Source: a virus
Strand: one strand, 5' to 3'
IMG/VR virus record: IMGVR_UViG_3300007722_000041
Location: 1-39,703 of that record
DNA: 39,703 bases
In this document: positions 1,253 through 19,045 of the stretch, in pieces
Position numbering within the stretch: the stretch's first letter is position 1
How the letters are laid out: the number at the start of each line of letters is the position of its first letter
The notes under the pieces: model-generated
What the model was told of the DNA's origin: nothing
Seen by the model: only the letters and a program-made list of their open reading frames with translations
Database searches by the model: none
Position numbers and translations under genes: made by a program

Positions 1253-1271
1253 CTATGTCTTTCCTTTCCTT

Positions 1272-3953: not shown

Positions 3954-3974
3954 CAGAAAAACTTCTTTCTAATT

Positions 3975-4535: not shown

Positions 4536-4797
4536 TTAAAACATTCTCCTCGTTTTCTGGGTATATGAATGCCGCAAAAGACAGTCTATTAAACCATTCG
4601 ATATAGTACGGTTGATTTGGTTGAGTTTGAGCATCAGCGGAGCACTTAACCTCAAGCATTGCCCACTTATCCTCAAACAAAATAAGAAGATCTGGAATCC
4701 CTTGTATATAAGACGGATCATTCTTAATAACAAAACATCCAGGTAGAAGCCTACCAAGACGTACTATGATGTCGTTCTGATATTTACTTTCTTGCAT
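4477..4797 (-). CDS. VRR-NUC domain nuclease
   Basis: The 106-residue protein matches a stand-alone VRR-NUC (PD-(D/E)XK) nuclease: KNDPSYIQGIPDLLILF carries the catalytic Asp and WAMLEVKCS the E-x-K pair. Phage VRR-NUC proteins act on branched or flap DNA and are often linked to Holliday-junction cleavage during replication or packaging. The gene begins 50 bases after a copy of the conserved promoter (4847-4875), so it probably leads the left-end nuclease and RNA polymerase operon. Its 3' end overlaps the RecB-like gene. Confidence 0.8.
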   Translation of the reverse strand: MQESKYQNDIIVRLGRLLPGCFVIKNDPSYIQGIPDLLILFEDKWAMLEVKCSADAQTQPNQPYYIEWFNRLSFAAFIYPENEENVLNALQQTFRVARQARLFEPE

Positions 4798-4846
4798 GTC
4801 CCTCCAATTGAAAAAGTAAAGAAATGCGTTTGCATATCCAGAGTCT

Positions 4847-4875
4847 CTCTATTATAAGCGTTGTATTCTTAACGA
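4847..4875 (-). promoter_or_regulatory. Conserved phage promoter, copy 1 (nuclease / RNA polymerase operon)
   Basis: Minus-strand reading AATACAACGCTTATAAT with a perfect TATAAT and the conserved ACAACGC block; the distal block is TCGTT rather than TCGCA. It lies between the NUMOD4 gene stop and the VRR-NUC start and would drive the genes from 4797 leftward. Confidence 0.75.
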
Positions 4876-4884
4876 GAGTATACG

Positions 4885-5400
4885 TTATCCAAATATGTAG
4901 TGTGCTCCTGTTGGGTATACTGCGGTTCCCATTGTAGCTGATTTCCAGACATCTTCAAATAGAAGCCCATCCTTAATAGCCGCATCAATGATTGACGGAT
5001 ATCCTTTACTATTGTCTACATTACTAACTCTTTTTATGTAATAGCTTTCTGGTTGATCTTCTACAAACTGTCGAGAATACTTCCATGCAAACCAAGAAGG
5101 TCGCCATGCTAGGTTTGGTGCAAACGTGTTCTCTTTGTTATTATCCAGCATAATGACGGTATCACAGAATACTCCATAATCGCTTGGGCCAAAATATGGA
5201 GGATCAACAAATGCTTCTGCCACAAGAACTCTTATGGATCTAGTTAGTCTTACACCATACTGTACGAGTGTTACTTTGTAGTCGCCCTGCATTGTTCGGC
5301 TTTTTGCCATTAGCTTATCTGTTCGGTGGTTTAAGACTTCTCCAAACGAACTTATACTGTAACTTGTAAATCTTTCGATTGGTTTCCAGACCTCTTGCAT
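4885..5400 (-). CDS. NUMOD4 / HNH-like protein, catalytic His apparently lost
   Basis: The N-terminus EVWKPIERFTSYSISSFGEV is a NUMOD4 motif, the DNA-binding segment typical of HNH homing endonucleases, and RVLVAEAFV matches the start of the HNH domain. The expected H-x-D-G-N-x-x-N region instead reads TVIMLDNNKENTFAPNLAW: the N...NL.W frame is kept, but the metal-binding or catalytic His is Met and no His precedes it. The roughly 70-residue C-terminal part is unfamiliar. It may be a DNA-binding protein descended from a homing nuclease. The ATG at 5400 follows AAAGGAGAATTAGACA. Confidence 0.65.
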   Translation of the reverse strand: MQEVWKPIERFTSYSISSFGEVLNHRTDKLMAKSRTMQGDYKVTLVQYGVRLTRSIRVLVAEAFVDPPYFGPSDYGVFCDTVIMLDNNKENTFAPNLAWRPSWFAWKYSRQFVEDQPESYYIKRVSNVDNSKGYPSIIDAAIKDGLLFEDVWKSATMGTAVYPTGAHYIFG

Positions 5401-5413
5401 TGTCTAATTCTCC

Positions 5414-5662
5414 TTTTGGCCAGATTTGACCAGTTTTGGGTAACAAAGAGTTGTGGGTAAAATGTCATACCTCTATACTCTCTTCATATATTAAGTCGTA
5501 TAGAGGGGGGTATAAATACGTAGTACTTTTTGAGTTTTAGATTTGACGATCACCACAAAGTTGGTTATCACTAAAAACGCATAATAAATTTGGTTGTTTC
5601 GTATAATTTAACACACTTTCATACACATTCACACACCTTGTTCGTCCGTCAAATCTGACCAA
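5414..5662. other. Repeat-rich intergenic region, candidate origin or regulator-binding region
   Basis: This noncoding AT-rich stretch separates the SF2 helicase and NUMOD4 genes. Its ends are near-perfect inverted repeats of 16 bases (TTTGGCCAGATTTGAC at 5414-5429 against GTCAAATCTGACCAAA near 5647-5662). The AGATTTGAC core recurs near 5540. A further inverted repeat, CCTCTATAC / GTATAGAGG, spans about 5470-5507. This resembles iterons or operator sites. I see no convincing copy of the conserved promoter here. Confidence 0.5.
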
Positions 5663-5675
5663 ATATTTCGCTTTT

Positions 5676-6875
5676 TTAACATTCATCGATTTCAAGTGGC
5701 TCGTTTTCAAGCATTTTAGCTATGTATTTTCTCTCGTTATAGGTTTCCTTAGAGTCAAGTGCATCGCGTATAGCTCTATCAATCTCCGAATTTGCCCACA
5801 AGATATAGTAGTAAAGTGTTGTGAAAGGGGTATCAAGACGGTCTATTCTACCTTGAGCCTGAGTAAAGTTCTTCCAAGAATATGTTAGGGAGTAGAGGAC
5901 CATAGCGTCCGTGGACGTGCAATTCCAACCTTCAGCACCTGCAGTATACTGAACAAGATAAACCCACCTTTCACTATCCGGTATAGGATTCTTACGATGA
6001 CCATTCCATTCACCAATCTCAATACAACCACCTAACGTTCTTAGTAGTTCTAGTTCGTAGTTAAATGTGTAGAATATGATTAACCTATTGTGGCACGTCA
6101 TTAGCTTACGAATCATATCTAGTCGTGATGTATCTTCATTTACAACTCTACGCATTAGTCGAAAGACTTCTGAAATATCGCGAATGGGTTGATCTTTGTA
6201 TGGGTTCCAACGATTTTTCAGGACTACATCAAACTTCTTACGGTCGAAGCCCACTTCAATATAATTTAGCATTCTCTCGGTATGTTTGATAAAAGGCATC
6301 TCAATGAGAATATCATTGCGTAGTACCTCTAGGTGACGCTCGTTAAGATAGCCACGAATCTTTGGGTACTTGGAATATGACGCATACAGTACATGCTTCA
6401 TCTTGAACTCAGTTATGTTCTTAAAGAATCCATTTGCAATGAATACCGGAGCGTAGTCTAACCTGTTGTCTCCTGGTGTGGCACTGAGCATAATCCATTT
6501 GTTTCGCTTAGCAATCTTTATAAATGATTTAACCCAAGAGCCATTACCAACAAGTCGTTGCTCATCAAAAATGAAAAAACAATATTCATAATCTTCAAAC
6601 TTACCAATGTTGTTCCAGGATTCAACAATGAGAGCACCATCTACAGTATATTCTTTATTTGTGGAAATAGTAAGTTTAGCAGCTTCTCGTTCCCAATCAA
6701 GAGTGTCTCTTTTTTTTGCAGTAGTGATGACTACGATGTCTTTTGGAGATTCTCTTTTAGCGTAGTAAGCAAGTGCCGTAAGTGACTTTCCACTTCCAAC
6801 TCCTCCCCACAATATCTTTCCATTACCGAGCCTTTCTATTGCTTCTGTCTGGTGGTCCATGAGTTTTATCATCAT
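5676..6875 (-). CDS. SF2 DNA helicase / ATPase (DEAD/SNF2-like)
   Basis: The 399-residue protein has the full superfamily 2 set: HQTEAIERL (Q-motif-like), Walker A GGVGSGKS (24-31), motif Ia VITTAKKRDTLDWERE, Walker B DEQR (104-107), motif III SATPG (131-135), and in the second RecA lobe IIFYTFNYE, AEGWNCTSTDAMV and motif VI QAQGRIDR (339-346). This is the layout of phage SNF2/UvsW-type translocases that remodel or unwind DNA during replication and recombination. The start at 6875 has TAAGGATT before it and overlaps the preceding small ORF. Confidence 0.85.
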   Translation of the reverse strand: MMIKLMDHQTEAIERLGNGKILWGGVGSGKSLTALAYYAKRESPKDIVVITTAKKRDTLDWEREAAKLTISTNKEYTVDGALIVESWNNIGKFEDYEYCFFIFDEQRLVGNGSWVKSFIKIAKRNKWIMLSATPGDNRLDYAPVFIANGFFKNITEFKMKHVLYASYSKYPKIRGYLNERHLEVLRNDILIEMPFIKHTERMLNYIEVGFDRKKFDVVLKNRWNPYKDQPIRDISEVFRLMRRVVNEDTSRLDMIRKLMTCHNRLIIFYTFNYELELLRTLGGCIEIGEWNGHRKNPIPDSERWVYLVQYTAGAEGWNCTSTDAMVLYSLTYSWKNFTQAQGRIDRLDTPFTTLYYYILWANSEIDRAIRDALDSKETYNERKYIAKMLENEPLEIDEC

Positions 6876-6963
6876 AATCCTTACTATCTATAGTACCAAA
6901 ATTTTTAGCAAAGTAAATAAGCATCCAAAAGTCAAATAATTCTTGTGGCTCAAACTCCTCCAT
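6823..6963 (-). CDS. Small protein of unknown function (46 aa)
   Basis: A 46-residue frame starts at 6963, sharing one base with the stop of the upstream gene (TGATG), and ends inside the helicase gene in another frame. The first half (MEEFEPQELFDFWMLIYFAKNFG) is acidic then aromatic-rich; the second (HGPPDRSNRKAR) is basic. The tight coupling on both sides supports translation. I recognise no family. Confidence 0.5.
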   Translation of the reverse strand: MEEFEPQELFDFWMLIYFAKNFGTIDSKDYDDKTHGPPDRSNRKAR

Positions 6964-7253
6964 CAAAACTCCTCACCAACCCACCCAAGGGCAACTCGAT
7001 TTGCTTCTTCGAATATGGGGTGACCGTCCGGACAAGTCGGGATACCTCCACTAGCATCAATATCTCTTTTTACACCACCCCATTCTCCATTGATACAGCG
7101 TAGTTCTCGGAATTGTTCCCCATAGTTCATAAGAATCACAGCAATGCTGGTATACAACATTTCATCCCGAAAATGATTTTGGCGATACTCAACTTGTTCC
7201 GCAATAGATAACGCATGCTCTACTGATAGTGGCTCACCTGAGATTGGTATCAT
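6963..7253 (-). CDS. Conserved phage protein of unknown function (96 aa)
   Basis: The chosen start at 7253 (MIPISGEPLSVEHALSIAEQ) has AAAGGAGAAATA directly upstream; the frame is open further but that part runs towards the terminator hairpin at 7282. Features include HFRDEMLYTSIAVILMNYGEQ (helical) and a C-terminal CINGEWGG...GIPTCPDGHPIFEEANR segment. It resembles small hypothetical proteins I remember from actinophages. No conserved promoter copy precedes it, so it may depend on read-through. Confidence 0.65.
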   Translation of the reverse strand: MIPISGEPLSVEHALSIAEQVEYRQNHFRDEMLYTSIAVILMNYGEQFRELRCINGEWGGVKRDIDASGGIPTCPDGHPIFEEANRVALGWVGEEF

Positions 7254-7281
7254 TATTTCTCCTTTGGTTACACTATACGAC

Positions 7282-7315
7282 AAAAAAAACCTAAGCCCTT
7301 GTGTAGGGCCTCGGT
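7282..7315 (-). terminator. Intrinsic terminator, family III copy 1
   Basis: Minus-strand hairpin with GGCCCTACACAAGGGC at its core followed by TTAGG and a run of T. It follows the stop of the gene at 7322-7519. About 40 bases are repeated almost exactly at 7583-7615. Confidence 0.8.
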
Positions 7316-7321
7316 CTTGAG

Positions 7322-7519
7322 TCAGTTCTGCTCGTCGATGTAATCTTGGATGTAATGAGCGCGTGCGCTCATGTACAGTTTTGGGTGGTTGTCCTTAATC
7401 TTGTCCAGCTCTTTTGTCAGACTATTAAAAAATTTTATTTCTCGATCAGTCTTTGGTTGAGTGGTCTTAATCGCGTTCATAATTCCGTACAACATATTTA
7501 TCACGTCTTGTTCTAACAT
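7322..7519 (-). CDS. Small soluble helical protein (65 aa)
   Basis: MLEQDVINMLYGIMNAIKTTQPKTDREIKFFNSLTKELDKIKD... is charged and predicted helical, without a membrane segment, unlike most neighbours in the array. AAGGAGTAATT precedes the ATG at 7519. It forms a one-gene unit between a degenerate promoter copy (7543-7571) and the terminator at 7282-7315. I recognise no family. Confidence 0.65.
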   Translation of the reverse strand: MLEQDVINMLYGIMNAIKTTQPKTDREIKFFNSLTKELDKIKDNHPKLYMSARAHYIQDYIDEQN

Positions 7520-7542
7520 AATTACTCCTTGGTAGGTAGTTG

Positions 7543-7571
7543 TCTCATTAAAGGTATTTTATAGTATGCAA
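7543..7571 (-). promoter_or_regulatory. Conserved phage promoter, copy 2 (degenerate)
   Basis: It aligns without gaps to the other copies but has TTGCA for TCGCA, a diverged central block and TTTAAT for TATAAT; the trailing GAGA is kept. It is probably weaker. It precedes the 65-residue gene. Confidence 0.5.
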
Positions 7572-7582
7572 CGTATACGGGT

Positions 7583-7615
7583 CAAAAAACCTAAGCCCTT
7601 GTGTAGGGCCTCGGT
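7583..7615 (-). terminator. Intrinsic terminator, family III copy 2
   Basis: Nearly identical to the hairpin at 7282-7315, with a T-run. It follows the gene at 7638-7784 and stands just upstream of the promoter at 7543-7571. Confidence 0.8.
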
Positions 7616-7637
7616 CTTGAGTCGAAATAAATTGTTT

Positions 7638-7784
7638 TTAATGATTACGTTTTCCTTTGTCTTTTGTTGCTAATACAATAGCTAGGATAATTCCGCCGAT
7701 CACGAAGTTTTTGTTTCGTTCTCGACGTCTATCTTCTGCTCGTTGTTTATTGGCATTTACAAGGTCTAGGAATTTTTTTATCAT
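7638..7784 (-). CDS. Small membrane protein (48 aa)
   Basis: The N-terminal half is very basic and helical (MIKKFLDLVNANKQRAEDRR). A short hydrophobic segment follows (NFVIGGIILAIVLATK, about 27-42) and a basic tail ends the protein. It looks like a single-pass or surface-associated membrane peptide. AAGGAGCAAATA precedes the ATG at 7784. The unit has its own promoter (7802-7830) and terminator (7583-7615). Confidence 0.6.
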   Translation of the reverse strand: MIKKFLDLVNANKQRAEDRRRERNKNFVIGGIILAIVLATKDKGKRNH

Positions 7785-7801
7785 TATTTGCTCCTTATTG
7801 G

Positions 7802-7830
7802 TCTCATTATAAGCATTGTATAATATGCGA
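7802..7830 (-). promoter_or_regulatory. Conserved phage promoter, copy 3
   Basis: TCGCA, five bases, TACAATGCTTATAATGAGA on the minus strand. The -10 hexamer is about 20 bases before the start codon of the 48-residue gene. Confidence 0.85.
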
Positions 7831-7842
7831 CTAAATCAAGAC

Positions 7843-7876
7843 AAAAAAAGGAAACCCGTGTGGGTCTCCTTCTTTT
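7843..7876 (-). terminator. Intrinsic terminator, family I copy 1
   Basis: GGAGACCCACACGGGTTTCC then a T-run on the minus strand. It ends the gene at 7882-8049 and abuts the next promoter. Confidence 0.8.
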
Positions 7877-7881
7877 AACTC

Positions 7882-8049
7882 CTACTCGTTGTTTTCTGAT
7901 AGGTTAACGATGTGCTCACCAATGAGTTCGTACACATAGTCTAACTCATGCTCAAGCTCTGTGATAATCGTATAAAGATTCCATAGAACTTTGGCTAGAG
8001 TCGCTATAGCAGCGAATGCAATGATGAGATATCCGATAGTCCAGATCAT
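7882..8049 (-). CDS. Small membrane protein (55 aa)
   Basis: The N-terminal half is one hydrophobic helix (MIWTIGYLIIAFAAIATLAK), the second half an acidic helix (TELEHELDYVYELIGEH). The topology would place the acidic part in the cytoplasm or outside; the sequence does not say which. AAGGAGTAATC precedes the ATG at 8049. It has its own promoter (8069-8097) and terminator (7843-7876). I recognise no family. Confidence 0.65.
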   Translation of the reverse strand: MIWTIGYLIIAFAAIATLAKVLWNLYTIITELEHELDYVYELIGEHIVNLSENNE

Positions 8050-8068
8050 GATTACTCCTTGTTGGTAG

Positions 8069-8097
8069 TCTCATTATAGGCGTTGTAAATTCTGCGA
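8069..8097 (-). promoter_or_regulatory. Conserved phage promoter, copy 4
   Basis: TCGCA, five bases, TACAACGCCTATAATGAGA on the minus strand; identical over the whole element to copy 9 (9831-9859). It drives the 55-residue gene. Confidence 0.88.
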
Positions 8098-8109
8098 GTA
8101 AATCAAGAC

Positions 8110-8142
8110 AAAAAAGGAGACCCTTGTGGGGTCCCCTCCTTC
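8110..8142 (-). terminator. Intrinsic terminator, family I copy 2
   Basis: GGGGACCCCACAAGGGTCTCC followed by a T-run on the minus strand, just after the stop of the gene at 8152-8373 and 13 bases before promoter copy 4. Confidence 0.8.
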
Positions 8143-8151
8143 TACGAGTTT

Positions 8152-8373
8152 TCAATCCATATCTTGAATTACTTTAGTGGATTCTTGCCAAACTGGGTTA
8201 AATTGCCGGCTCCACATTAATGGTGTAATAGAGTCTCGCCTCACATACCGTACGACTCTTTTAAGCACGACGAATATTAATGCGCCTGCTGCAAATGTCG
8301 CCGCTGTGATTGCGACCTCTTTTGTACCATTTTCTGTGGTCTCGGTCATAGTATCAACTTGGTTGTCATTCAT
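8152..8373 (-). CDS. Small membrane protein, MNDN-family paralogue A (73 aa)
   Basis: MNDNQVDTMTETTENGTKE is a hydrophilic N-terminus, followed by a membrane helix (AITAATFAAGALIFVVLKRVV, about 21-41) and a basic then acidic tail containing PVWQESTKVIQ. The ATG at 8373 follows GGAGAAATT; the longer frame upstream runs across the promoter and is rejected. It shares its first residues with the gene at 9561-9803, and its tail and entire upstream DNA with the gene at 10281-10535. Function unknown. Confidence 0.7.
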   Translation of the reverse strand: MNDNQVDTMTETTENGTKEVAITAATFAAGALIFVVLKRVVRYVRRDSITPLMWSRQFNPVWQESTKVIQDMD

Positions 8374-8400
8374 AATTTCTCCAATGATTAGTGGGTTTGT

Positions 8401-8429
8401 TCTCATTATACGCGTTGTAAATTCTGCGA
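8401..8429 (-). promoter_or_regulatory. Conserved phage promoter, copy 5
   Basis: TCGCA, five bases, TACAACGCGTATAATGAGA. About 55 bases covering this promoter and the leader to the start codon are identical to those at 10537-10591. Confidence 0.88.
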
Positions 8430-8441
8430 GTAAATCAAGAC

Positions 8442-8475
8442 AAAAAAGGAAACCCGTGTGGGTCTCCTTCTTTAA
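8442..8475 (-). terminator. Intrinsic terminator, family I copy 3
   Basis: Same hairpin as 7843-7876 (GGAGACCCACACGGGTTTCC plus T-run), ending the gene at 8480-8614. Confidence 0.8.
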
Positions 8476-8479
8476 AGCT

Positions 8480-8614
8480 TTATCGGGCACTTAGTCCAAA
8501 TATTCCTGAGATCAGTCGAAACATCCGTCCCACAAGTACACTCATCGCCCAAATGGCGATAGCTGCAATTGCGAGAGGGATGAATAAAATGATTAATAGA
8601 AAGATTTCAAACAT
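8480..8614 (-). CDS. Small membrane protein (44 aa)
   Basis: Almost the whole N-terminal two thirds is hydrophobic (MFEIFLLIILFIPLAIAAIA then IWAMSVLVGRMF), followed by a short tail ending GLSAR. It may span the membrane once or form a hairpin. AAGGAGACATAA precedes the ATG at 8614. It has its own promoter (8632-8660) and terminator (8442-8475). A holin-like or exclusion role is possible but unproved. Confidence 0.65.
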   Translation of the reverse strand: MFEIFLLIILFIPLAIAAIAIWAMSVLVGRMFRLISGIFGLSAR

Positions 8615-8631
8615 TTATGTCTCCTTGGTAG

Positions 8632-8660
8632 GCTCATTATAGACGTTGTATTATCTGCGA
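8632..8660 (-). promoter_or_regulatory. Conserved phage promoter, copy 6
   Basis: TCGCA, five bases, TACAACGTCTATAATGAGC on the minus strand. It drives the 44-residue gene. Confidence 0.82.
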
Positions 8661-8662
8661 TT

Positions 8663-8698
8663 AAAAAAAGAAGAAGCCATGTTAGGCTCCTTCCTTTT
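8663..8698 (-). terminator. Intrinsic terminator, family II copy 1
   Basis: GGAGCCTAACATGGCTTCTTC then a T-run on the minus strand, overlapping the 3' end of the gene at 8699-8896. The same hairpin recurs at 9202-9238. Confidence 0.75.
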
Positions 8699-8896
8699 TT
8701 AGAGTTCTTCATATTGTTCGTCATTAAGGTACTTCATCACGTCAATGCCTTCACTTTCCAGGAACGTATAGAAGGATTTTGCGTTCTTTTGCTGTAGGGC
8801 AATTGCTGAAATAGCAAGTGCTCCTAAGGCATAAGAAACGGTGTTACGCTTCAGATGGTTCTTGGTGTTGATAGCAACTTCTTTGATTTTGTTCAT
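8699..8896 (-). CDS. Small membrane-associated protein (65 aa)
   Basis: MNKIKEVAINTKNHLKRNT is basic, followed by a moderately hydrophobic helix (VSYALGALAISAIALQQ, about 20-36) and an acidic C-terminus (FLESEGIDVMKYLNDEQYEEL). AAGGAGACATT precedes the ATG at 8896. It has its own promoter (8916-8944) and terminator. I recognise no family. Confidence 0.65.
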   Translation of the reverse strand: MNKIKEVAINTKNHLKRNTVSYALGALAISAIALQQKNAKSFYTFLESEGIDVMKYLNDEQYEEL

Positions 8897-8915
8897 AATG
8901 TCTCCTTATAGGTTG

Positions 8916-8944
8916 TCTCATTATAGGCATTGTAGATTCTGCGA
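8916..8944 (-). promoter_or_regulatory. Conserved phage promoter, copy 7
   Basis: TCGCA, five bases, TACAATGCCTATAATGAGA. It lies directly after the stop of the gene at 8947-9177, with no terminator between, and drives the 65-residue gene. Confidence 0.85.
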
Positions 8945-8946
8945 TT

Positions 8947-9177
8947 TTATTGGTCACGTTCATATACACGAGAAACTTCATAGTTCAATGAGGTTAAATC
9001 ATCATTCGTAAAGTGAATAAAATACTTACCCGGCTCTTTGATTGTTCCATTCTGAATCGAGTTAGTCAAAGCCGCCGCAAATGGAATCTCGTCACCAACT
9101 CCAGTGACAGGCAACGGTGGAAACTTCTCACCAAGCTCTACCACATAACCATATTGTCCATTTATAAACTGAAACAT
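8947..9177 (-). CDS. Soluble protein of unknown function (76 aa)
   Basis: MFQFINGQYGYVVELGEKFPPLPVTG looks like a small beta-rich protein, with KYFIHFTNDDLTSLNYEVSRVYERD at the end. I start it at 9177, where AAAGAGGACAA lies upstream; the frame is open to 9219 but the extra part is the family II terminator hairpin. It has no own promoter, so it depends on read-through of that terminator. I recognise no family. Confidence 0.55.
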   Translation of the reverse strand: MFQFINGQYGYVVELGEKFPPLPVTGVGDEIPFAAALTNSIQNGTIKEPGKYFIHFTNDDLTSLNYEVSRVYERDQ

Positions 9178-9201
9178 TTGTCCTCTTTCTAAGGCATTTA
9201 T

Positions 9202-9238
9202 GAAAAAAGAAGAAGCCATGTTAGGCTCCCCCTTTTTA
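9202..9238 (-). terminator. Intrinsic terminator, family II copy 2
   Basis: GGAGCCTAACATGGCTTCTTC then a T-run on the minus strand, immediately after the stop of the gene at 9240-9419. Confidence 0.75.
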
Positions 9239-9239
9239 G

Positions 9240-9419
9240 TCAGTTACTTTTGGTTTTGAACATATTCAGAACTGAGTTGGTTGCATTTGTCCGAGTTTGC
9301 GTCAGAGTTTCTTCTATCTTTTCATCAATTGCCATCTTGGCAATGATTCCAGCTAGGAATGATCCTCCGAGTGCAATTACGGTAATTGCGCCCAACATAT
9401 ATCCTGATGTAAATTTCAT
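9240..9419 (-). CDS. Small membrane protein (59 aa)
   Basis: MKFTSGYMLGAITVIALGGS begins a single N-terminal membrane helix (about 6-28), followed by a polar helix with many Thr/Asn (EKIEETLTQTRTNATNSVLN). It may sit in the inner membrane with the polar part forming a coiled coil. GGAGGAATT precedes the ATG at 9419. Own promoter (9437-9465) and terminator (9202-9238). Confidence 0.65.
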   Translation of the reverse strand: MKFTSGYMLGAITVIALGGSFLAGIIAKMAIDEKIEETLTQTRTNATNSVLNMFKTKSN

Positions 9420-9436
9420 AATTCCTCCAGTAGTTG

Positions 9437-9465
9437 TCTCATTATAAGCGTTGTATTATATACGA
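9437..9465 (-). promoter_or_regulatory. Conserved phage promoter, copy 8
   Basis: TCGTA, five bases, TACAACGCTTATAATGAGA. It drives the 59-residue gene. Confidence 0.82.
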
Positions 9466-9490
9466 TTTACTTACGTCCTATGAAGTTGGT
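9466..9490 (-). pseudogene. Relic of a gene 3' end (copy of the end of 9861-10106)
   Basis: Minus-strand AACTTCATAGGACGTAAGTA encodes NFIGRK and a stop. The intact gene at 9861-10106 ends NFIGRE and a stop, also directly upstream of a promoter copy. No gene body precedes the relic, which suggests that a paralogue or recombination intermediate was deleted. Confidence 0.55.
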
Positions 9491-9520
9491 TGTTTTATTA
9501 TAAATAGTATCCCTATACGA

Positions 9521-9554
9521 CAAAAAAGGAGACCCTTGTGGGGTCTCCTCCTTT
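9521..9554 (-). terminator. Intrinsic terminator, family I copy 4
   Basis: GGAGACCCCACAAGGGTCTCC then a T-run on the minus strand, ending the gene at 9561-9803. It is followed by TTGTCGTATA, also seen after the hairpins at 7282 and 10241. Confidence 0.82.
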
Positions 9555-9560
9555 GCGTTT

Positions 9561-9803
9561 TTACTCGCAGTTTTGATTATTCTCATCTTCGTCAGATTCA
9601 CTTATGTAATAAACCGCTTCCAAATCTTTATTAGGACGCAAGCTCTCAAATCCGGTACGAATATAGTTCCATCCAAAGCGCGCGACTGTTGGAAGCGTAG
9701 CGCCTATTACGGCGCAAGCTACTAATGTCATTGCTGTGGTTGGAAACTCACTCGTATCATCTTCGGTGGTCTCGGTCATAGTATTGATGTGGTTGTCATT
9801 CAT
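9561..9803 (-). CDS. Small membrane protein, MNDN-family paralogue B (80 aa)
   Basis: MNDNHINTMTETTEDDTSE matches paralogue A (8152-8373) almost residue for residue at the start. A hydrophobic segment follows (TTAMTLVACAVIGATLPTVA, about 22-41). The C-terminus is acidic and ends ENNQNCE, like the QNCE end of paralogue C (10281-10535). AAGGAGACTTAACC precedes the ATG at 9803. It has its own promoter (9831-9859) and terminator (9521-9554). Confidence 0.7.
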   Translation of the reverse strand: MNDNHINTMTETTEDDTSEFPTTAMTLVACAVIGATLPTVARFGWNYIRTGFESLRPNKDLEAVYYISESDEDENNQNCE

Positions 9804-9830
9804 GGTTAAGTCTCCTTGGTAGGTGAGTTG

Positions 9831-9859
9831 TCTCATTATAGGCGTTGTAAATTCTGCGA
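9831..9859 (-). promoter_or_regulatory. Conserved phage promoter, copy 9
   Basis: TCGCA, five bases, TACAACGCCTATAATGAGA, identical to copy 4. It abuts the stop of the gene at 9861-10106 and drives paralogue B. Confidence 0.88.
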
Positions 9860-9860
9860 T

Positions 9861-10106
9861 TCACTCACGTCCTATGAAGTTATTGTGCTTGGAAAACTTT
9901 TGAAACTCACTTATAATAAGATCAAATCTAATCGTGGCTCCGTTTTCAAAGGCCACGTACCCGTAATCTTTTTTCCCATGACCACAGCAAGCAAATATAA
10001 CTCCGGGGAGCACACCTAGACATGGGTCTGCATAATAACCATCTTCAGTTCTTTCGTTTTCTGTACAAACCAAATTACATACGTTGCACTTCATTCCAGG
10101 ATGCAT
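9861..10106 (-). CDS. Small cysteine-rich, probably zinc-binding protein (81 aa)
   Basis: MHPGMKCNVCNLVC contains CxxCxxxC, and a second group follows (DPCLGVLPGVIFACCGHG), enough for one or two zinc sites. The C-terminal half (GYVAFENGATIRFDLIISEF) looks like a compact beta/alpha region. AAGGAGTAATAAACA precedes the ATG at 10106. No conserved promoter copy lies directly upstream; the 130 bases before it hold nothing I recognise. A nucleic-acid-binding role is possible. Confidence 0.65.
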   Translation of the reverse strand: MHPGMKCNVCNLVCTENERTEDGYYADPCLGVLPGVIFACCGHGKKDYGYVAFENGATIRFDLIISEFQKFSKHNNFIGRE

Positions 10107-10240
10107 TGTTTATTACTCCTTAATTAGTTGGTAAATATAAGTCGTGCCATATATTGGATTTAATCTTAACATGTATAACACCTACAGAATGTTACTCTTT
10201 AAGTCTTCATTACACATTCTTAGTAGTTATCCTTATACGA

Positions 10241-10274
10241 CAAAAAAAGGAAACCCGTGTGGGTCTCCTTCTTT
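10241..10274 (-). terminator. Intrinsic terminator, family I copy 5
   Basis: GGAGACCCACACGGGTTTCC then a T-run on the minus strand, ending the gene at 10281-10535. It matches 7843-7876 and 8442-8475. Confidence 0.82.
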
Positions 10275-10280
10275 GCGTTT

Positions 10281-10535
10281 TTACTCGCAGTTTTGTTTTT
10301 GATCAAACTCTACTATTACATCTTTAAGTAATGTAGTGGATTCATTCCAAATTGCATTATATGGGCTGTCGCTCATTAATGATAAAAGCCAGTCCCGCGC
10401 ACATGCAACAAGTACGGCTTCAACAGCCATGATGCCTATTAAGGCTTTGGATGTTAATTCTACTGTTGTGATTGCGAACTCTCTTTTACCACTTGTTGGG
10501 CTCTTTGCCAAAGCATTCATTAGGTTGCCATTCAT
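10281..10535 (-). CDS. Small membrane protein, MNDN-family paralogue C (84 aa)
   Basis: MNGNLMNALAKSPTSGKREF is followed by a hydrophobic stretch (ALIGIMAVEAVLVACARDWL, about 31-50). The tail NAIWNESTTLLKDVIVEFD resembles paralogue A (PVWQESTKVIQ), and the last residues QNCE match paralogue B. The start at 10535 has GGAGAAATT and the same leader and promoter DNA as paralogue A. So it is a mosaic of the other two. Own promoter 10563-10591, terminator 10241-10274. Confidence 0.7.
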   Translation of the reverse strand: MNGNLMNALAKSPTSGKREFAITTVELTSKALIGIMAVEAVLVACARDWLLSLMSDSPYNAIWNESTTLLKDVIVEFDQKQNCE

Positions 10536-10562
10536 AATTTCTCCAATGATTAGTGGGTTTGT

Positions 10563-10591
10563 TCTCATTATACGCGTTGTAAATTCTGCGA
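10563..10591 (-). promoter_or_regulatory. Conserved phage promoter, copy 10
   Basis: TCGCA, five bases, TACAACGCGTATAATGAGA, identical to copy 5 including the leader. It drives paralogue C. Confidence 0.88.
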
Positions 10592-10594
10592 GTT

Positions 10595-10726
10595 TTACCT
10601 AGTCCAACGGAGTTTTACATATGGGTATCGAGAAGACTTCTTGTAATGAAGCCCACGATGGAATAAAAAGCGTTCACATTTAAAGTCTTCACCGTAAGTA
10701 CTTCGGCATTTAAATAATTTAAGCAT
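10595..10726 (-). CDS. Small basic protein (43 aa)
   Basis: MLKLFKCRSTYGEDFKCERF and HRGLHYKKSSRYPYVKLRW make a very basic, aromatic-rich product with two Cys. Its net charge suggests nucleic acid binding. GTAGGAGTAATA precedes the ATG at 10726. The stop is a few bases before promoter copy 10. I recognise no family. Confidence 0.55.
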   Translation of the reverse strand: MLKLFKCRSTYGEDFKCERFLFHRGLHYKKSSRYPYVKLRWTR

Positions 10727-10750
10727 TATTACTCCTACGAGTTAGATGTA

Positions 10751-10987
10751 TTATATATCTAGGTCTACAACTTCACCAAGCTCTTGAATAATACTATTTA
10801 GTTCTTTTTGGGCTTCTCCAGCAAAGCTGTCAAGACCATAGAAGTCGTCTCCATTACGGAGCTTAAGATGAATGTGATACCTTGGCAATGGCTTTGTTGA
10901 ATCAATAGCCTCAATCCTAACGTATAAAATCTCTTCTGCATCTACTGCGAACTGTGCATCACCACGAATTTTAATGAACTTACGCAT
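10751..10987 (-). CDS. Small protein sharing its N-terminus with the gene at 11871-12293 (78 aa)
   Basis: I start it at 10987 (MRKFIKIRGDAQFAVDAEEI), where GGAGGAAATA lies directly upstream, rather than at 10999, which lacks a site. The first 30 residues match the C-terminus of the 140-residue protein at 11871-12293 at both protein and DNA level. The rest (RYHIHLKLRNGDDFYGLDSFAGEAQKELNSIIQEL) looks like a small alpha/beta domain, possibly DUF-like. It follows the structured noncoding stretch 10995-11215. Confidence 0.65.
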   Translation of the reverse strand: MRKFIKIRGDAQFAVDAEEILYVRIEAIDSTKPLPRYHIHLKLRNGDDFYGLDSFAGEAQKELNSIIQELGEVVDLDI

Positions 10988-10994
10988 TATTTCC

Positions 10995-11215
10995 TCCATT
11001 AGTTGTTTGCGAATAGGAGCAGTTTGTATCCCGCGTGCTCAGGCGGGGAGACGCCCACAGGAGCGAAAGGTACCCAGCAGTGGTTTCCGCACTACCTTAC
11101 TGTTTTTCTGCCACTCTAAAAAAGGGACAGTTATCAGTTTGTGTGACGATTAGATGTAAACCCGGTTATGTTACGCGAGCGATCTAGGTCACTTTCCTCC
11201 GGGCCAGAGGAAATA
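10995..11215 (-). ncRNA. Structured noncoding region, candidate RNA or leader
   Basis: The roughly 230 bases between two small genes have no ORF but several perfect stems: TTTCCTC/GAGGAAA (11193-11213), GTGAC plus TAGAT pairing with ATCTA plus GTCAC (11143-11192), AAGGT/ACCTT enclosing AGTG/CACT (about 11067-11097), and GGCG/CGCC (11042-11055). A run of six T near 11115 could end a first domain. The strand is inferred from flanking genes. It could be a trans-acting RNA or a 5' regulatory leader of the gene at 10751-10987. No known family is recognised. Confidence 0.5.
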
Positions 11216-11223
11216 TAAAAGAG

Positions 11224-11367
11224 TTACTCTTTTGTAACGGTAGTTATAACATCCTGTAACGCGTAGGCACTTGCTGCCATAACGAGTGCTATAGACCAAA
11301 GCCTTAACGTTGTTTTTATAAAAATCGCTGGTTTTATAGAAATTTTTACCTCTATAACTTTACTCAT
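11224..11367 (-). CDS. Small membrane protein (47 aa)
   Basis: MSKVIEVKISIKPAIFIKTT is followed by a hydrophobic helix (LRLWSIALVMAASAYAL, about 21-37) and a short polar tail. GGAGGAAAGCA precedes the ATG at 11367, which overlaps the upstream stop (ATGA). It is coupled to the gene at 11364-11594. Function unknown. Confidence 0.6.
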   Translation of the reverse strand: MSKVIEVKISIKPAIFIKTTLRLWSIALVMAASAYALQDVITTVTKE

Positions 11368-11594
11368 TGCTTTCCTCCATTATTGGTTCTTGATAGTATT
11401 ATTACCGAACTTAACTTATACCCTTCTGGGTGATAGTCTTTTGCATACCTGAAGCAATCTTCTTGAGTCTTAAGCTTGGTTCCATCTCTTGGATTTAAGA
11501 TAGATCCCATGATTGCGTCTCGAATAAGTTTTGCCGTGCTGATGTTGATGTTGTCATCAAACTCAAGCTTTCCAATAGCACAGGTTAATATCAT
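11364..11594 (-). CDS. Small protein of unknown function (76 aa)
   Basis: MILTCAIGKLEFDDNINIST is followed by KLIRDAIMGSILNPRDGTKLKTQEDCFRYAKDYHPEGYK, a soluble alpha/beta-looking protein. TAGGAGAATAA precedes the ATG at 11594. Its 5' region is the structured element 11620-11736 and promoter copy 11, so it is the first gene of that unit if transcription passes the U-tract. I recognise no family. Confidence 0.6.
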   Translation of the reverse strand: MILTCAIGKLEFDDNINISTAKLIRDAIMGSILNPRDGTKLKTQEDCFRYAKDYHPEGYKLSSVIILSRTNNGGKQ

Positions 11595-11619
11595 TTATTC
11601 TCCTAATTAGTTGGTAAAG

Positions 11620-11736
11620 AAAAAAAGAGAAGCGTGGGTTACTAGCCTATCGAAAACTAGTCGTTAAGCACTTTTTCAGGTGCCGCCAGGTAGGTATAAG
11701 TTTTCTCTTATACACCTTCGTATCTTACCTCTTCTC
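11620..11736 (-). ncRNA. Multi-branched small RNA with intrinsic terminator-like end
   Basis: Transcription from promoter copy 11 would start at or near GAGAAG (11736). That strand pairs with CTTCTC (11632-11627), immediately before seven T. Inside are AGGTA/TACCT enclosing GTATAAG/CTTATAC, then GCAC/GTGC, then ACTAG/CTAGT. This makes a closed junction with three arms, about 117 nucleotides long, ending in a U-tract: the layout of a discrete noncoding RNA, or of a leader that controls read-through into the gene at 11364-11594. No known family is recognised. Confidence 0.6.
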
Positions 11737-11763
11737 TCATTATAAGCATTGTATTAATTGCGA
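11735..11763 (-). promoter_or_regulatory. Conserved phage promoter, copy 11
   Basis: TCGCA, five bases, TACAATGCTTATAATGAGA. Its nearest product is the structured RNA at 11620-11736 rather than a coding sequence. Confidence 0.85.
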
Positions 11764-11766
11764 ACT

Positions 11767-11838
11767 GGGCGGCCTGACCGGGAGTCATAGGGTTACTCTC
11801 CGCAGACTGTAGAACTCTCGCAATAGGTTCTAGCGCCC
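11767..11838. other. 72-base folded element between a gene end and a promoter
   Basis: GGGCG (11767-11771) pairs with CGCCC (11834-11838) and encloses two hairpins: one from GGGAGT to ACTCTCC and one from TAGAAC to GTTCTA. The size is like a tRNA, but no T-loop GTTCGA, anticodon arm or CCA is seen. It may be the 3' processing or termination element of the gene at 11871-12293, or part of a second RNA. The strand is not decided. Confidence 0.4.
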
Positions 11839-11870
11839 TAAAATATTAACTACCTGCGTCTAACTTATTA

Positions 11871-12293
11871 TCAATCTGATACAATCTCCGCAATACTTTC
11901 CGCAATAGCCTCAAGCTTAACGTATAAAATCTCTTCTTCATCTACTGCGAACTGTGCATCACCAGGAATTTTAATGACCTCGCGAACACTTTCATCCTCT
12001 TCTTTGTTTAGGAAGTCAACCCAAGACTGTGTTTCAGGTTCTATTGCAATAAACTGCTCGTTAAAGATTCTTTCCGAATAACAACGAATGTTGTCACCCA
12101 TCTTAGTCATCCAGAACCCTGGGTAGACTCGGAAAACATTCGGGATGAGACGACGATCAACTTGAATATAAGGTGTTCCGTCATCCTTTGTACGCATAGT
12201 GCCTACGAACTCAGAAATATCATTGATGTTCTCAACGGTTACTTCAATTGCCTCTACAACAAAAGGCTTACGGACAAACGTCTGAAATTCCAT
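11871..12293 (-). CDS. Conserved phage protein with duplicated C-terminal segment (140 aa)
   Basis: The main part (MEFQTFVRKPFVVEAIEVT..., RLIPNVFRVYPGFWMTKMGD, SERIFNEQF) matches a widespread small phage protein of unknown function that usually ends soon after this last motif. Here a tail EVIKIPGDAQFAVDEEEILY has been added that copies the N-terminus of the gene at 10751-10987, including near-identical DNA. AAGGAGAATTAAAGT precedes the ATG at 12293. It looks like a fusion created by local duplication. Confidence 0.7.
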   Translation of the reverse strand: MEFQTFVRKPFVVEAIEVTVENINDISEFVGTMRTKDDGTPYIQVDRRLIPNVFRVYPGFWMTKMGDNIRCYSERIFNEQFIAIEPETQSWVDFLNKEEDESVREVIKIPGDAQFAVDEEEILYVKLEAIAESIAEIVSD

Positions 12294-12296
12294 ACT

Positions 12297-12401
12297 TTAA
12301 TTCTCCTTCGAAATTGGGTTGGTAGCTGCTTGCGAAATTCCGTATCCCGACAAGACGCCAAACAGCATGATACAAGCTCCTAACAGAATATCCCAATTCA
12401 T
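12297..12401 (-). CDS. Tiny membrane protein (34 aa)
   Basis: MNWDILLGACIMLFGVLSGY is a single hydrophobic helix followed by a short polar tail. The ATG at 12401 shares a base with the stop of the ssDNA-binding candidate (TGATG), and its last codons form the ribosome site of the next gene. This arrangement supports translation. No family recognised. Confidence 0.55.
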   Translation of the reverse strand: MNWDILLGACIMLFGVLSGYGISQAATNPISKEN

Positions 12402-12865
12402 CAGCTTGGGTCCTGATTTTTGGAGTACTTACGCTCTAGTTCATCTTCATGTATCGTGATAAAGAGAGACTGCAAATATGCCTTTGTTCCCGTTTTACCA
12501 TTAACATTCCAGTCATACCCACGAGCAATTAGGTCTGCAAACTCAACATCGGCCCAATCCAAAACCTCAACACTATCCTCATCTAACTGCGTACGACTGT
12601 TGGCGGAGATCATAATAACTCGTGGGGGACGGACATTGAAGTTTACTGCCACCTGAATATAGGGTGTAGGTAAATCCCCTTCTTCCCTAGGGTCAAGGTA
12701 TCGGACGTTCCACCCGTCCTCCAACATCTTCACCGCAACTTCTTTGTCAAGAATAACAGCGAAGTTTCGATCACCTTCCCTATTGTACTGCCCTTCCTTA
12801 CCTGTGAAGTTACGGAAAATGATTTGTGCATCTTCAACCATAAAGGTCTTAGCTTCGTTACTCAT
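12401..12865 (-). CDS. Probable single-stranded DNA-binding protein (154 aa)
   Basis: The sequence (AQIIFRNFTGKEGQYNREGDRNFAVIL at 14-40, NVRYLDPREEGDLPTPYIQV, and WADVEFADLIARGYDWNVNG near the end) matches a family I remember next to replication genes in actinophages and gut phages. Its beta-rich pattern with conserved aromatic and basic residues suggests an OB fold. It would coat ssDNA at the fork. The position, directly after the fused helicase-primase-polymerase gene, agrees. AGGAGAAAATTAA precedes the ATG. The function is inferred, not shown by a diagnostic motif. Confidence 0.55.
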   Translation of the reverse strand: MSNEAKTFMVEDAQIIFRNFTGKEGQYNREGDRNFAVILDKEVAVKMLEDGWNVRYLDPREEGDLPTPYIQVAVNFNVRPPRVIMISANSRTQLDEDSVEVLDWADVEFADLIARGYDWNVNGKTGTKAYLQSLFITIHEDELERKYSKNQDPS

Positions 12866-12915
12866 TTAATTTTCTCCTCAATAGTAGAACTTTCCTCGAA
12901 TATGTCATTATTCAT
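12862..12915 (-). CDS. Possible 17-residue leader peptide
   Basis: MNNDIFEESSTIEEKIK starts at 12915 after AAGGAGATAATA and ends in TGA overlapping the next ATG. The strong ribosome site and ATGA overlap suggest that it is translated to couple the following gene. It is too short to assign a function. Confidence 0.4.
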   Translation of the reverse strand: MNNDIFEESSTIEEKIK

Positions 12916-12952
12916 TATTATCTCCTTATTTAAAGTATTTGAAGTTTTCTTT

Positions 12953-15900
12953 TTATGAAATAAACTCTTTGTATGATCCAAATTTCTCGATAGATTCAAT
13001 TGCCGAATCCACTAACTTTCTAAAATATGATTGGTCAATGTGTGGATCTTCACCATTCTGTACACGGTTTTCTGCAACTTCTTTTTCAATCCACAAATAT
13101 CCTTTTGTTCCTGTTACTGCATAGGATTTATTATCCTTTACTCGAAGAAGGGTTCCTCCTCCTTCAACAACGGGAACAAAAACTCCAGTCCTACCAACGT
13201 GTCTAAAATTGTTTTGGTCGCCGTCACCAACAAAGTCAAGGTACATTATTCCTTGCATGACGCTTCTTGCTTCGCAGTAGTCATTGAATTCTATGGGTTC
13301 TTTTGAGAGAAGTTTTTTGTAGACGTATGGATGCTGGAAACGAGCACCAACAGTAGTCCACTCAGGACCATTCTTAGCAATATAGACCGCATCGTTGATA
13401 AGACAAAGCTTATCGTAAGTTTCTTCATGCTCAAAGTCATAGCCATACTTCTTCCCAAAATTTACTACAAATTCGATAATATCTGACGTTGCATTGGGAA
13501 TCTTGATCGAATCCGTTTTGATGTGTGCAACAGTAAACCCTTGCTCTTTAACAGCGTGTTTTAGGTCTACCATAAATAAGGCTCCGCGTTTAGCTACGAT
13601 GTTATCCTTGTTACGGTTATCCCTGAATGGATTTTCGAATCGTGCACTAGTAAGCCCGTAAACGCTGTTGATGACAATCTTAAGAGCGTAGGACAATGCC
13701 TTAGCATCCTGAGTATCCCCCAGATGCTTTTCAAGTTTACCTCCAAGTAAAGTCCTGGCTTCTGTGTAGTCCTCACGTTTAATCGCCATACGTGCTTTCT
13801 TGAGTTCTGAAAAGGCCTCCGTGTATTGTCCAAACAAATGTAAGGCTTCGATACTCGTTGGATGCATACTCGCAACGTCCAAAAGGGCAACGTTCTTGTA
13901 TATTCCTGGTTCTGCATAAACATAACCTCCTTCTCCTGTTACTTCTCCGCGATAGGTGCTTTCTTTTCCATTAAACTTATATCCCGGAAATTGGTTACTC
14001 AAATCGGTATAAATAAACGAGTTTTGAGGACGTTTGGCATCTCCAAATATGATTTTAGATGTCTGGGCTTGAGTAGTATGATTGACGGAAAGCCCAGATA
14101 GTTCCGATAGAATTTCTCTTGCAACAAAATCTTGCTTTCTGCTGTTGAATACAGCTTCGGTAGCAATGACATCGTTTTCGCAATACTCAACAACCTTGTC
14201 CCAAAGGGCTTCATCTACAGGCTCATCCCAAGGAATATCCATTTCCATATGACGAATACCAAGTTCGATCATGAACTTTTTAAGCCCTTGTTTTTTAGAA
14301 CTAAAGTCATAAATATCCGCATAAGAGAGGTTGTATGCCTCTCCAAACAATACCTGACGAGAATTTGCCCCATTTATGATTTTGTGACTTAGATGGTAAA
14401 GTTCCTCGTTTGAGTAACCAAGGAACCGCGCATATAAAATATGATTGTCATACCGACGATTGTTGAATCCGACAAGCTTTTGCGAAAGTAGTGGTTCAAT
14501 ATCTTTAGGTTCTGGATTAACCATCTTTACTACTTCATCAGTGTCTTTGACTTTCCAACACACAACGAACAAGTTTGGGTAAACTTCAACGTCATAGAAT
14601 ACGATGGGTTTATTTGCCATGTCTGTAATTTCAGGCATTTCTTTCTTTCCTACGAACTGCATTTTTTGAACAACTTTGATGCAGTCCAAGGAATGATTTG
14701 TGCTTTTAGAGGCAAACCCAAGAATATCCCCTCGGAGATCTCTAACATCATAGGACAGATCAGACTCGTGAGCATCATCAAGAATTTTGTGAATGAAATC
14801 CACGGAGGGCTTTGTCCCTGGATGAATCTCTTTCCGAAGGTTCCTTGTTATTATATCACGAAGCCCTTTTTCGCTCTTAATACTCTGGGCATTAAGCATC
14901 TTCTTCTCCTTTTTTGGGAGACCACTGTTAAGCGGCGTCAAGTTTACGTCATTACAAAAAGTCAGCTTTCGGCGAAGTGATGAGTCTCCGAGTAGAGTTT
15001 TGGTCTCGATACCAACGCTGTAAATATTAGAAAGCTCATGTACATTTCCACCAGTGTACTCATAGTGTAGATGCAGTCCGCGACCACTTTTACTTAACTC
15101 AGTATAAGTCGCTGGCCACTTGTTTGCTTCATCCAAGTTCTTTTCCAAAGACTTTTCGCCATTTTCGTCCGTAAGATCGAAGTCTATGACAATGTAGATT
15201 TCTGGAATCTTAACGTAGTGGAGCTTCGTTGTGTCCAGGTCAACTAGAGTTGAGGTTACATTCTCCCACTTCTTTTCAGGAATACCTTGCTCGTTGGCAT
15301 ACTGAGCTGGCATGTTAGATTGCAACTGATCAAAGACAGATACAGTTTCACTTAGATCAATGTGGTTTGGTTTATCCGTCTTGATAGGGAACCCAGGTTG
15401 TGGTGGGTTCGGTGACATATGCTTAAACCCTTTATAATAGCTCCTCAAGTCGACTCCATCCTCACGGTATCTTTCATGGAATTCAAAGAAGTAATCTTTC
15501 AACTGTTCGCGAAGCTTGTACTGAGGTAGCATCTTTTCAATGCCAGTCTCAGAACAGAACTCTTTATACAAAGACCAAGCTTTTTTTAAAGTAACGCCGT
15601 CATTGTCTTTGAAAATATCAAAATACGCTTCAATAAAGTTGTAAAATACGTCGGTTTGAAGCATCATCTCTGTGGGCTTGTAATTGCTATAGTAGTTAGA
15701 ACCCATTGAAATATACTTTTCTAAACAGTGATATGCAATCCCGCCCAATTCAAACTTGATCCTATCCATTAACTCGTGATATAGATCATGCTCAATAGTT
15801 CTTTGTGTTGGGACGACGTCAATCAATCTTCTAATGATACCTGACTTTGCGTCTGTTATCTTAACTGGCAGGTTAGTACCCATAAATAAGAAGGAATTAG

Positions 15901-18892: not shown

Positions 18893-18894
18893 AA

Positions 18895-19035: not shown

Positions 19036-19045
19036 CATACCTCCT

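Follow-up and report, generated by a model that had tools for sequence, protein, structure and literature searches.

A nine-unit array of small-gene cassettes behind a repeated, probably phage-specific promoter, with a proposed link to a phage two-barrel RNA polymerase

Introduction

Arrays of small membrane-protein genes have been reported in Arthrobacter phages of clusters AM and AU and in the Rhodococcus phages Pepy6 and Poco6 (PMC5513430, PMC13313380). In the Gordonia phages Vardy and Conley, five copies of a TATAAT-bearing motif have been described and read as sigma70-like (PMC9671010, PMC10868162), the Vardy motif being a 50 bp intergenic sequence accompanied by predicted terminators. 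Among phages that encode their own RNA polymerases, distinct promoter motifs have been assigned to each polymerase of P23-45 by 5'-end mapping and chromatin immunoprecipitation sequencing (PMC10770324), and for YonO of Bacillus phage SPbeta the promoter sequence has been stated as undetermined (PMC5467207). The present analysis concerns a 39.7 kb stretch of viral DNA, the IMG/VR virus record IMGVR_UViG_3300007722_000041 (hereafter the window), and within it an array of small-gene cassettes at positions 7282-10726 of the minus strand, to which all coordinates below refer unless otherwise stated. The array as such is not new, small-membrane-gene arrays being known in Gordonia, Arthrobacter, Rhodococcus and Streptomyces phages. 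What appears to be new is the nature of the promoter that heads the cassettes, the spacing of which is kept from actinophages to Lactococcus phage 1706 and to Clostridia phages and prophages. We regard it as moderately probable that the locus is a nine-unit accessory array on a phage-specific promoter, read by the phage's own polymerase, in which cassettes are exchanged at the level of the promoter.

Organization of the cassette array

Nine promoter-gene-terminator units are found in the interval, eight of them with a strong, near-identical 30-bp promoter (motif scores of 44.8-49.2) and one with a weak copy. Each of the nine open reading frames (ORFs) is followed by a hairpin and a T-run ahead of the next promoter, the gap between terminator and next promoter being about 3-15 nt for most neighbours, and in a separate test 10 of the 11 motif-driven ORFs of the window had a terminator no more than 60 nt from the stop codon. 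A first-pass annotation of this DNA had described insulated units of one promoter, one ribosome site, one small gene and one terminator, with the terminator abutting the next promoter, and both points are borne out by the shared motif promoter, the terminators at the nine ORFs and the short gaps. Its count of at least seven successive units stands for the interval as a whole but not for an unbroken run, the longest of which comprises six units (promoters 8915 to 7542), with three genes lacking a motif promoter (8947-9219, 9861-10106 and 10595-10726) breaking up the array. A generic scan yielded five of the terminators on the minus strand (those of units 5 to 9) and one, at 9527-9549, on the plus strand, the others having been read off the sequence. 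Applied to sigma70 promoters and terminators over 20 kb, the generic scan performed at chance level overall and is uninformative without a specific motif, so that the evidence for the units lies in the shared specific motif and not in generic matches.

In the direction of transcription, unit 1 comprises a promoter at 10562-10591 (score 46.5), a gene for an 84-amino-acid (aa) protein with a single hydrophobic helix (10281-10535) and an intrinsic terminator at 10242-10276, which is supported by sequence reading, a repeat designated D6 and the terminator test. In unit 2, the promoter at 9830-9859 (49.2) precedes the gene for an 80-aa single-helix protein (9561-9803) and the hairpin at 9527-9549, placed on the minus strand and supported by the terminator test. 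Unit 3 has its promoter at 9436-9465 (45.8), encodes a 59-aa single-helix protein (9240-9419) and ends at a terminator at 9203-9237, supported as in unit 1; it is followed by the gene at 8947-9219, for a product of 90 aa or fewer, which according to the sequence, the ORF list and the motif scan has no motif promoter of its own and falls outside the cassette plan. Unit 4 (promoter 8915-8944, 46.7) encodes a 65-aa protein with a weak hydrophobic stretch (8699-8896) and ends at 8664-8698, where sequence reading, repeats and the terminator test agree. Single-helix proteins of 44, 73 and 55 aa are encoded by unit 5 (promoter 8631-8660, 44.8; gene 8480-8614; terminator 8441-8474), unit 6 (8400-8429, 46.5; 8152-8373; 8110-8142) and unit 7 (8068-8097, 49.2; 7882-8049; 7842-7877), respectively. 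Unit 8 (promoter 7801-7830, 47.7; terminator 7593-7611) encodes a 48-aa protein with a short hydrophobic stretch (7638-7784), a homologue of which lies behind the same promoter in the relative L087 (E 6e-7), and unit 9 couples the weak, degenerate promoter at 7542-7571 (21.7) to a gene for a 65-aa soluble protein (7322-7519) and a terminator at 7293-7311.

The genes at 8152, 9561 and 10281 are paralogous copies, two of which share an identical promoter core. Repeats of 166 nt (D1) at 8266-8431, 9696-9861 and 10428-10593 span the promoter and gene start of these three cassettes, which points to duplication inside the array. Between the terminator at 9527 and the promoter at 9436, the sequence at 9466-9525 resembles a decayed second promoter copy (ATACTATTTATAATAAAACAACC).

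The promoter motif in the window and its relatives

In the window the 30-bp motif follows the consensus TCGCA-N5-TACAACGC-N-TATAATGAGAC, and zero matches were obtained in shuffled windows at a score of at least 8. Outside the interval, strong copies begin at 11734, 20464, 21596 and 22083 and a variant at 4846, all on the minus strand. The family consensus is TCGCA-N5-(T/A)ACA-N5-TATAATGAGA, without a -35 box. A logo built from 79 sites in seven genomes has sharp edges and three blocks, TCGCA, (T/A)ACA and TATAATGAGA, at fixed spacing, and upstream of TCGCA none of the positions is conserved among these sites, hence no conserved -35 hexamer some 17 nt ahead of TATAAT. Gordonia phage Petito, Streptomyces phage Rima and Rhodococcus phage ReqiPepy6 each carry 11-15 copies of the same promoter, most of them in the region that separates the tail genes from the DNA polymerase gene. 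In Lactococcus phage 1706 it takes the form T(C/T)(G/A)CA-N5-TACA-N5-TATAGTAGA before small genes at the same spacing, with 10 copies of TTTTACA-N5-TATAGT on the coding strand against 0.05 in shuffles, and in Faecalibacterium phage FP_oengus it reads ACGCG-N5-(T)ACA-N5-CTTTATGGA, with 11 copies on the coding strand and 0 in shuffles. The TATA block is replaced by CTTTAT in FP_oengus, where the other blocks are kept, and by TTTTAT in many Clostridia copies and prophages. In L087, TCGCA has become TAACA in nearly all 11 copies, a joint change as would be expected of a single reader.

When motif discovery was run naively on upstream regions, FP_oengus and L087 yielded the motif and Mudcat part of it, and several divergent genomes gave ribosome sites or terminators in its place. 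In several genomes, conservation extends beyond GAGA as far as the ribosome site. Of 674 motif sites, 120 have no ORF behind them, and some of these drive a tRNA or structured RNAs. In L217 and L218, the sequence before many promoter copies (e.g., CGTAGGGGTCTC) is complementary to the leader that follows the promoter (GAGACCCCTACG); such a flanking inverted repeat was not seen in the window. The first-pass annotation had taken these elements for ordinary promoters, a view against which the spacing, the conservation across host phyla and the place before a phage RNA polymerase operon all argue. Given that the spacing of the three blocks is the same in phages whose hosts belong to different phyla, the motif is probably not an ordinary host promoter.

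Cargo proteins and cassette turnover

Membrane helices were judged by hydropathy only. Six of the nine array products have a 19-residue window of at least 1.6 on the Kyte-Doolittle scale, and the expectation that products of 44 to 84 residues would carry a single membrane helix is thereby supported for most of them; the 7322-7519 product has no hydrophobic helix. The 554 promoter-driven ORFs of the family are 75 aa long at the median; 54.5% of them have a hydrophobic helix and 37% are followed by a terminator within 60 nt, as against 11.7% and 0.4%, respectively, for shuffled sequences. The bias is also seen within five genomes, where 62% of motif-driven ORFs have a hydrophobic helix versus 24% of other small ORFs. 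A search of PHROGs with the array proteins assigned no function, the sole match being that of the 8699-8896 product to phrog_12653 (E 0.001), a family of unknown function. When the window's 11 motif-driven ORFs were compared with the other cargo, the 22083 unit proved widespread (81 matches), the 8915 unit had five homologues and the 20464 and 7801 units one each; the remaining ORFs had no homologue among that cargo at E 1e-3. Since so few have homologues among other cargo, the array products are fast-changing accessory proteins, and they may act on the host membrane. The first-pass annotation had further supposed that each gene is expressed at a set level and that the products could serve in host takeover, superinfection exclusion or anti-defence; of this, the enrichment for membrane helices is what the analysis shows.

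Whole-cassette turnover, for which the first-pass annotation had suggested looking in related genomes, is found in eight Gordonia cluster DJ phages. Here there is little change in the first cassette and in the last few, and those between are gained, lost and reordered, including one for the structured RNA considered below. Of 251 distinct alignment breakpoints, 81 lie within 40 nt of a promoter, versus a mean of 21.6 and a maximum of 53 for shifted promoters (1000 shifts). The prediction that the cassettes are swappable thus agrees both with the gain, loss and reordering of whole cassettes and with the clustering of breakpoints at promoters.

A phage RNA polymerase as the proposed reader

At 1272-3953 the window encodes an 893-aa protein of phrog_4291, a family annotated as 'RNA-dependent RNA polymerase'. 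Its catalytic DxDGD motif lies at residues 517-521, with D517, D519, G520 and D521 invariant in 52 homologues. An AlphaFold2 model (predicted local distance difference test score of 84.8) matched QDE-1 (E 6e-10, probability 1.00) and P74-26 gp62 (E 7e-7) when compared with the PDB by Foldseek; since the whole-chain template-modelling scores reach only about 0.33, the resemblance is to be read at the level of the two-barrel core. By predicted fold (two double-psi beta barrels) and DxDGD motif, the protein is classed as a putative two-barrel, QDE-1-like RNA polymerase. It has helix-turn-helix (HTH) matches near both ends, and a sequence-profile search of the PDB with it returned HTH and chance matches only.

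The polymerase gene belongs to an operon headed by the variant promoter at 4846-4875. The first gene, at 4477-4797, encodes a VRR-Nuc-like protein and is followed by that for a Cas4-like exonuclease at 3975-4535, both recognized from annotated homologues and tblastn. The motif heads this operon in 59 of 88 loci, a count obtained with a matrix partly trained on those same sites, its distance upstream of the polymerase gene being 500-1400 bp and in most cases 900-940 bp; the opposite-strand control gave 1 of 88. These 59 loci include prophages of cultured Clostridia, e.g., Hungatella hathewayi. With the actinophage matrix alone, 33 matches, all on the plus strand, were found in the loci from Clostridia and other bacterial genomes, versus 1 in 1.29 Mb of shuffled sequence. 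A single-sequence polymerase query in viral contigs found five loci only, and the set of loci was taken from other searches. A search of 2.9 million viral contigs for the exact pattern, which took no account of proteins, found at least 119 stretches; of 50 contigs of at least 32 kb taken from the matches listed, 41 carry a homologue of the 893-aa protein, 42 the DNA polymerase of the family and 47 one or both. Conversely, of the 34 DNA-polymerase loci that are 15 kb or longer, 32 contain the motif, versus one chance match in 0.9 Mb of shuffled sequence. The simplest reading would be that the polymerase reads the motif and drives its own operon.

A likely start site is suggested by the units without an ORF. 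In 49 of 113 such units the sequence right after TATAAT can pair with a segment just before the T-run, and the closing stems most often begin at the base immediately following TATAAT or at an adjacent one, some including the GAGA that directly follows it. With an 8-bp criterion, closing stems occur in 16 of 113 non-coding versus 20 of 546 coding units (p 7e-5). On moderate evidence this favours initiation adjacent to TATAAT, in contrast to sigma70 promoters, where the start lies 6-8 nt downstream of the -10 box.

In the proposed mechanism, each unit would consist of a copy of the phage-specific promoter, one ribosome site, one small gene and an intrinsic terminator placed before the next promoter. 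The single-chain two-barrel RNA polymerase encoded by the phage (1272-3953) would be the reader; it would initiate at, or immediately beside, the G that follows TATAAT, and would use the variant promoter at 4846 to transcribe its own operon. As all cassettes share their opening sequence, recombination at promoters would allow them to be gained, lost and rearranged without loss of expression. In its broadest form, the proposal would make the motif the promoter of the widespread phrog_4291 single-chain two-barrel polymerases of Actinobacteria, Lactococcus and Clostridia phages, compact, with its start next to the TATA block and with feedback on the polymerase's own operon, driving exchangeable membrane-peptide, tRNA and loop-loop-RNA cassettes, the polymerase possibly being carried in the virion; for this extended version we consider the balance to be even. 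The homologue in Lactococcus phage 1706 is annotated as a structural protein, and a virion-borne enzyme is for that reason possible. The 84-aa protein encoded at 998-1252, which has no family match and is conserved next to the polymerase gene in more than 80 loci, including those of Lactococcus and Clostridia phages, is a possible partner of the polymerase.

Several observations weigh against a polymerase-read motif, besides the partial training of the matrix on the sites that it counts. An above-threshold match before the operon is absent from 29 of the 88 polymerase loci, including that of 1706, and the window's own operon copy scores only 10.6. TATAAT is a perfect sigma70 -10 box in most actinophages and could be used by the host RNA polymerase. 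The link between motif and polymerase is not exclusive, other proteins (the 84-aa protein at 998-1252, the helicase and the 19046-19723 product) being common to the motif phages as well. Lastly, a permuted-partner control leaves a smaller excess of closing stems, 27 versus 16.2 +/- 3.4.

Alternative explanations

The strongest of the alternatives, which we nonetheless consider unlikely, holds that the elements are ordinary host sigma-A promoters with a strong -10 box, in which TCGCA and ACA serve as spacer or UP-like sequence, and that the host RNA polymerase expresses the cassettes from the start of infection. The perfect -10 box in the window and most actinophages speaks for it, as does its adoption in two genome announcements (PMC9671010, PMC10868162), and the copy before the polymerase operon requires a reader before the polymerase exists, unless the virion carries the enzyme. 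It has to contend with the missing -35 hexamer at the 79 sites, with the ACA and TCGCA blocks, nearly as conserved as the -10 block and fixed in spacing, and with the CTTTAT of FP_oengus and the TTTTAT of many Clostridia copies. In addition, the examined motif contigs of at least 38.8 kb all belong to one phage family.

T4 MotA acts at middle promoters by recruiting host RNA polymerase. A comparable phage DNA-binding factor, binding TCGCA and ACA and recruiting the host enzyme to TATAAT, appears somewhat less probable again. Conserved upstream blocks beside a -10-like block would fit an activator site, and small conserved proteins widely common to the motif phages (84 aa at 998-1252 and 225 aa at 19046-19723) would be candidates for the factor; neither protein, however, matched any family in which a DNA-binding domain is known, CTTTAT and TTTTAT make poor -10 boxes, and HTH matches lie close to either end of the polymerase itself. 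Least probable by far is the view of the repeat as mainly a recombination or messenger RNA leader element (5' untranslated region plus ribosome site) on a long message transcribed from elsewhere, since the clustering of breakpoints at the element and the conservation from GAGA to the ribosome site are set against terminators between units and against the many sites without an ORF, some driving a tRNA or structured RNA, which do not fit a translation leader. A phage-specific promoter read by the 893-aa polymerase is the explanation that we prefer.

Structured RNAs and the second array

Some cassettes encode a new structured RNA supported by covariation. In the window, a promoter at 11734-11763 drives the RNA at 11622-11736, a match to the covariance model at E 9e-25 as a member of its training set. 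The family has 21 members, the other 20 occurring in relatives (L118, L333, L318, L222, L276, L091, L216, L349 and others). The helices show 94% pairing, with changes on both sides in 19 of 23 pairs, and 86 both-side-change cells were counted versus 22 in shuffles (0 of 500 as high), a signal that is lost when the alignment is slid by one column; the model to which the alignment was fitted derives from nine of its own sequences, which biases these counts towards the structure. A loop-loop interaction of CGAA with UUCG, covarying to CUAA/UUAG and UGAA/UUCA, forms part of the structure, and its pairs lie outside that model. A search of Rfam with 11622-11736 gave no match at the gathering threshold and none up to E 5. 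The GC-rich intergenic stretch at 11000-11220, with several inverted repeats and no assigned ORF, may be another structured RNA.

The second array of the window includes a promoter at 22083-22112 with a gene for a 96-aa single-helix protein of phrog_5818 (21775-22065), the sole widespread cassette according to PHROGs, hydropathy and the cargo comparison. It also includes a promoter at 20464-20493 with a gene for a 66-aa single-helix protein (20244-20444). Between them, the promoter at 21596-21625 has no ORF and is directly followed by a candidate RNA of some 50 nt that combines a short hairpin with a T-run, the two together spanning 21545-21625.

Genome context

The window carries genes for TerL, portal, protease, tape measure, primase/polymerase and helicase, all on the minus strand, with no tRNA, and the cassette interval lies between the genes for a single-strand-binding protein (12401-12865) and the helicase (5676-6875). 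Identity to counterparts in Gordonia, Streptomyces, Arthrobacter, Rhodococcus, Curtobacterium and Microbacterium phages is about 46-58% for the replication genes and the 893-aa protein, and the latter shares 35-43% with its counterparts in Lactococcus phage 1706 and FP_oengus. The replication set of the actinophages that carry such arrays is found in the window, namely primase/polymerase (phrog_4210), single-stranded DNA-binding protein, helicase and phrog_4291. The genome is mosaic: its replication genes (within 998-20175) are nearest to actinophages, and the portal, capsid and terminase region (29813-39245) matches Faecalibacterium and Lactococcus phages and Clostridia prophages. This structural region had no match in the searched stretches of five actinophages, although those stretches possibly do not include the structural genes. 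The two ends of the window are joined by contig L342 (1-6556 and 14733-14863), at 99.9% identity over 6.6 kb, and the overlap shows that the record is incomplete, with a genome of about 48 kb of which about 8.2 kb are missing.

Two further genes deserve mention. A candidate NUMOD4-containing HNH-type homing endonuclease is encoded at 4885-5400. Downstream of the polymerase gene, 324-755 encodes a 2H phosphoesterase or 2'-5' RNA ligase-like protein (PF13563, PF02834); such enzymes include phage proteins directed against the cyclic-oligonucleotide-based antiphage signalling system (CBASS), and by analogy this product is a candidate for an anti-CBASS function.

Comparison with known systems

Single-chain two-barrel RNA polymerases occur in many phages and their promoters are known for few. 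If the motif is such a promoter, cultured Gordonia, Streptomyces, Arthrobacter, Rhodococcus and Lactococcus phages supply ready in vitro templates, and a defined gene set of small membrane proteins and small RNAs becomes assignable to one phage polymerase. A mode of exchange of small accessory genes among phages would also be indicated, in which the promoter shared by every cassette border acts as the joint.

YonO resembles the window polymerase as a single-chain phage polymerase with a DxDGD motif and differs from this family in transcribing late genes. Kinship with YonO by profile was considered and not found (hhalign probability 0.8%, a 20-column chance match), and a similar promoter was not noticed by eye upstream of yonK. 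With QDE-1, P74-26 gp62 and P23-45 gp64 it has in common the predicted fold and catalytic DxDGD; the identity is about 11-12%, and the window protein has extra HTH regions. The motifs of P23-45 are a precedent for distinct promoters of phage two-barrel polymerases.

The actinophage arrays of the cluster DJ, AM, AU, CC and BI type come nearest to the locus described here. Like it, they consist of a cluster of small genes, often encoding one membrane helix, next to tail or replication genes, with a repeated intergenic TATAAT motif before single genes, and they are accompanied by related replication genes. Unlike them, the window has structural genes that resemble those of Firmicutes phages, and it contains two arrays, one of which is located between the genes for the single-strand-binding protein and the helicase. 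Whereas the published reports each cover one or a few clusters, the motif is here found to span host phyla and to head the operon of a phage polymerase.

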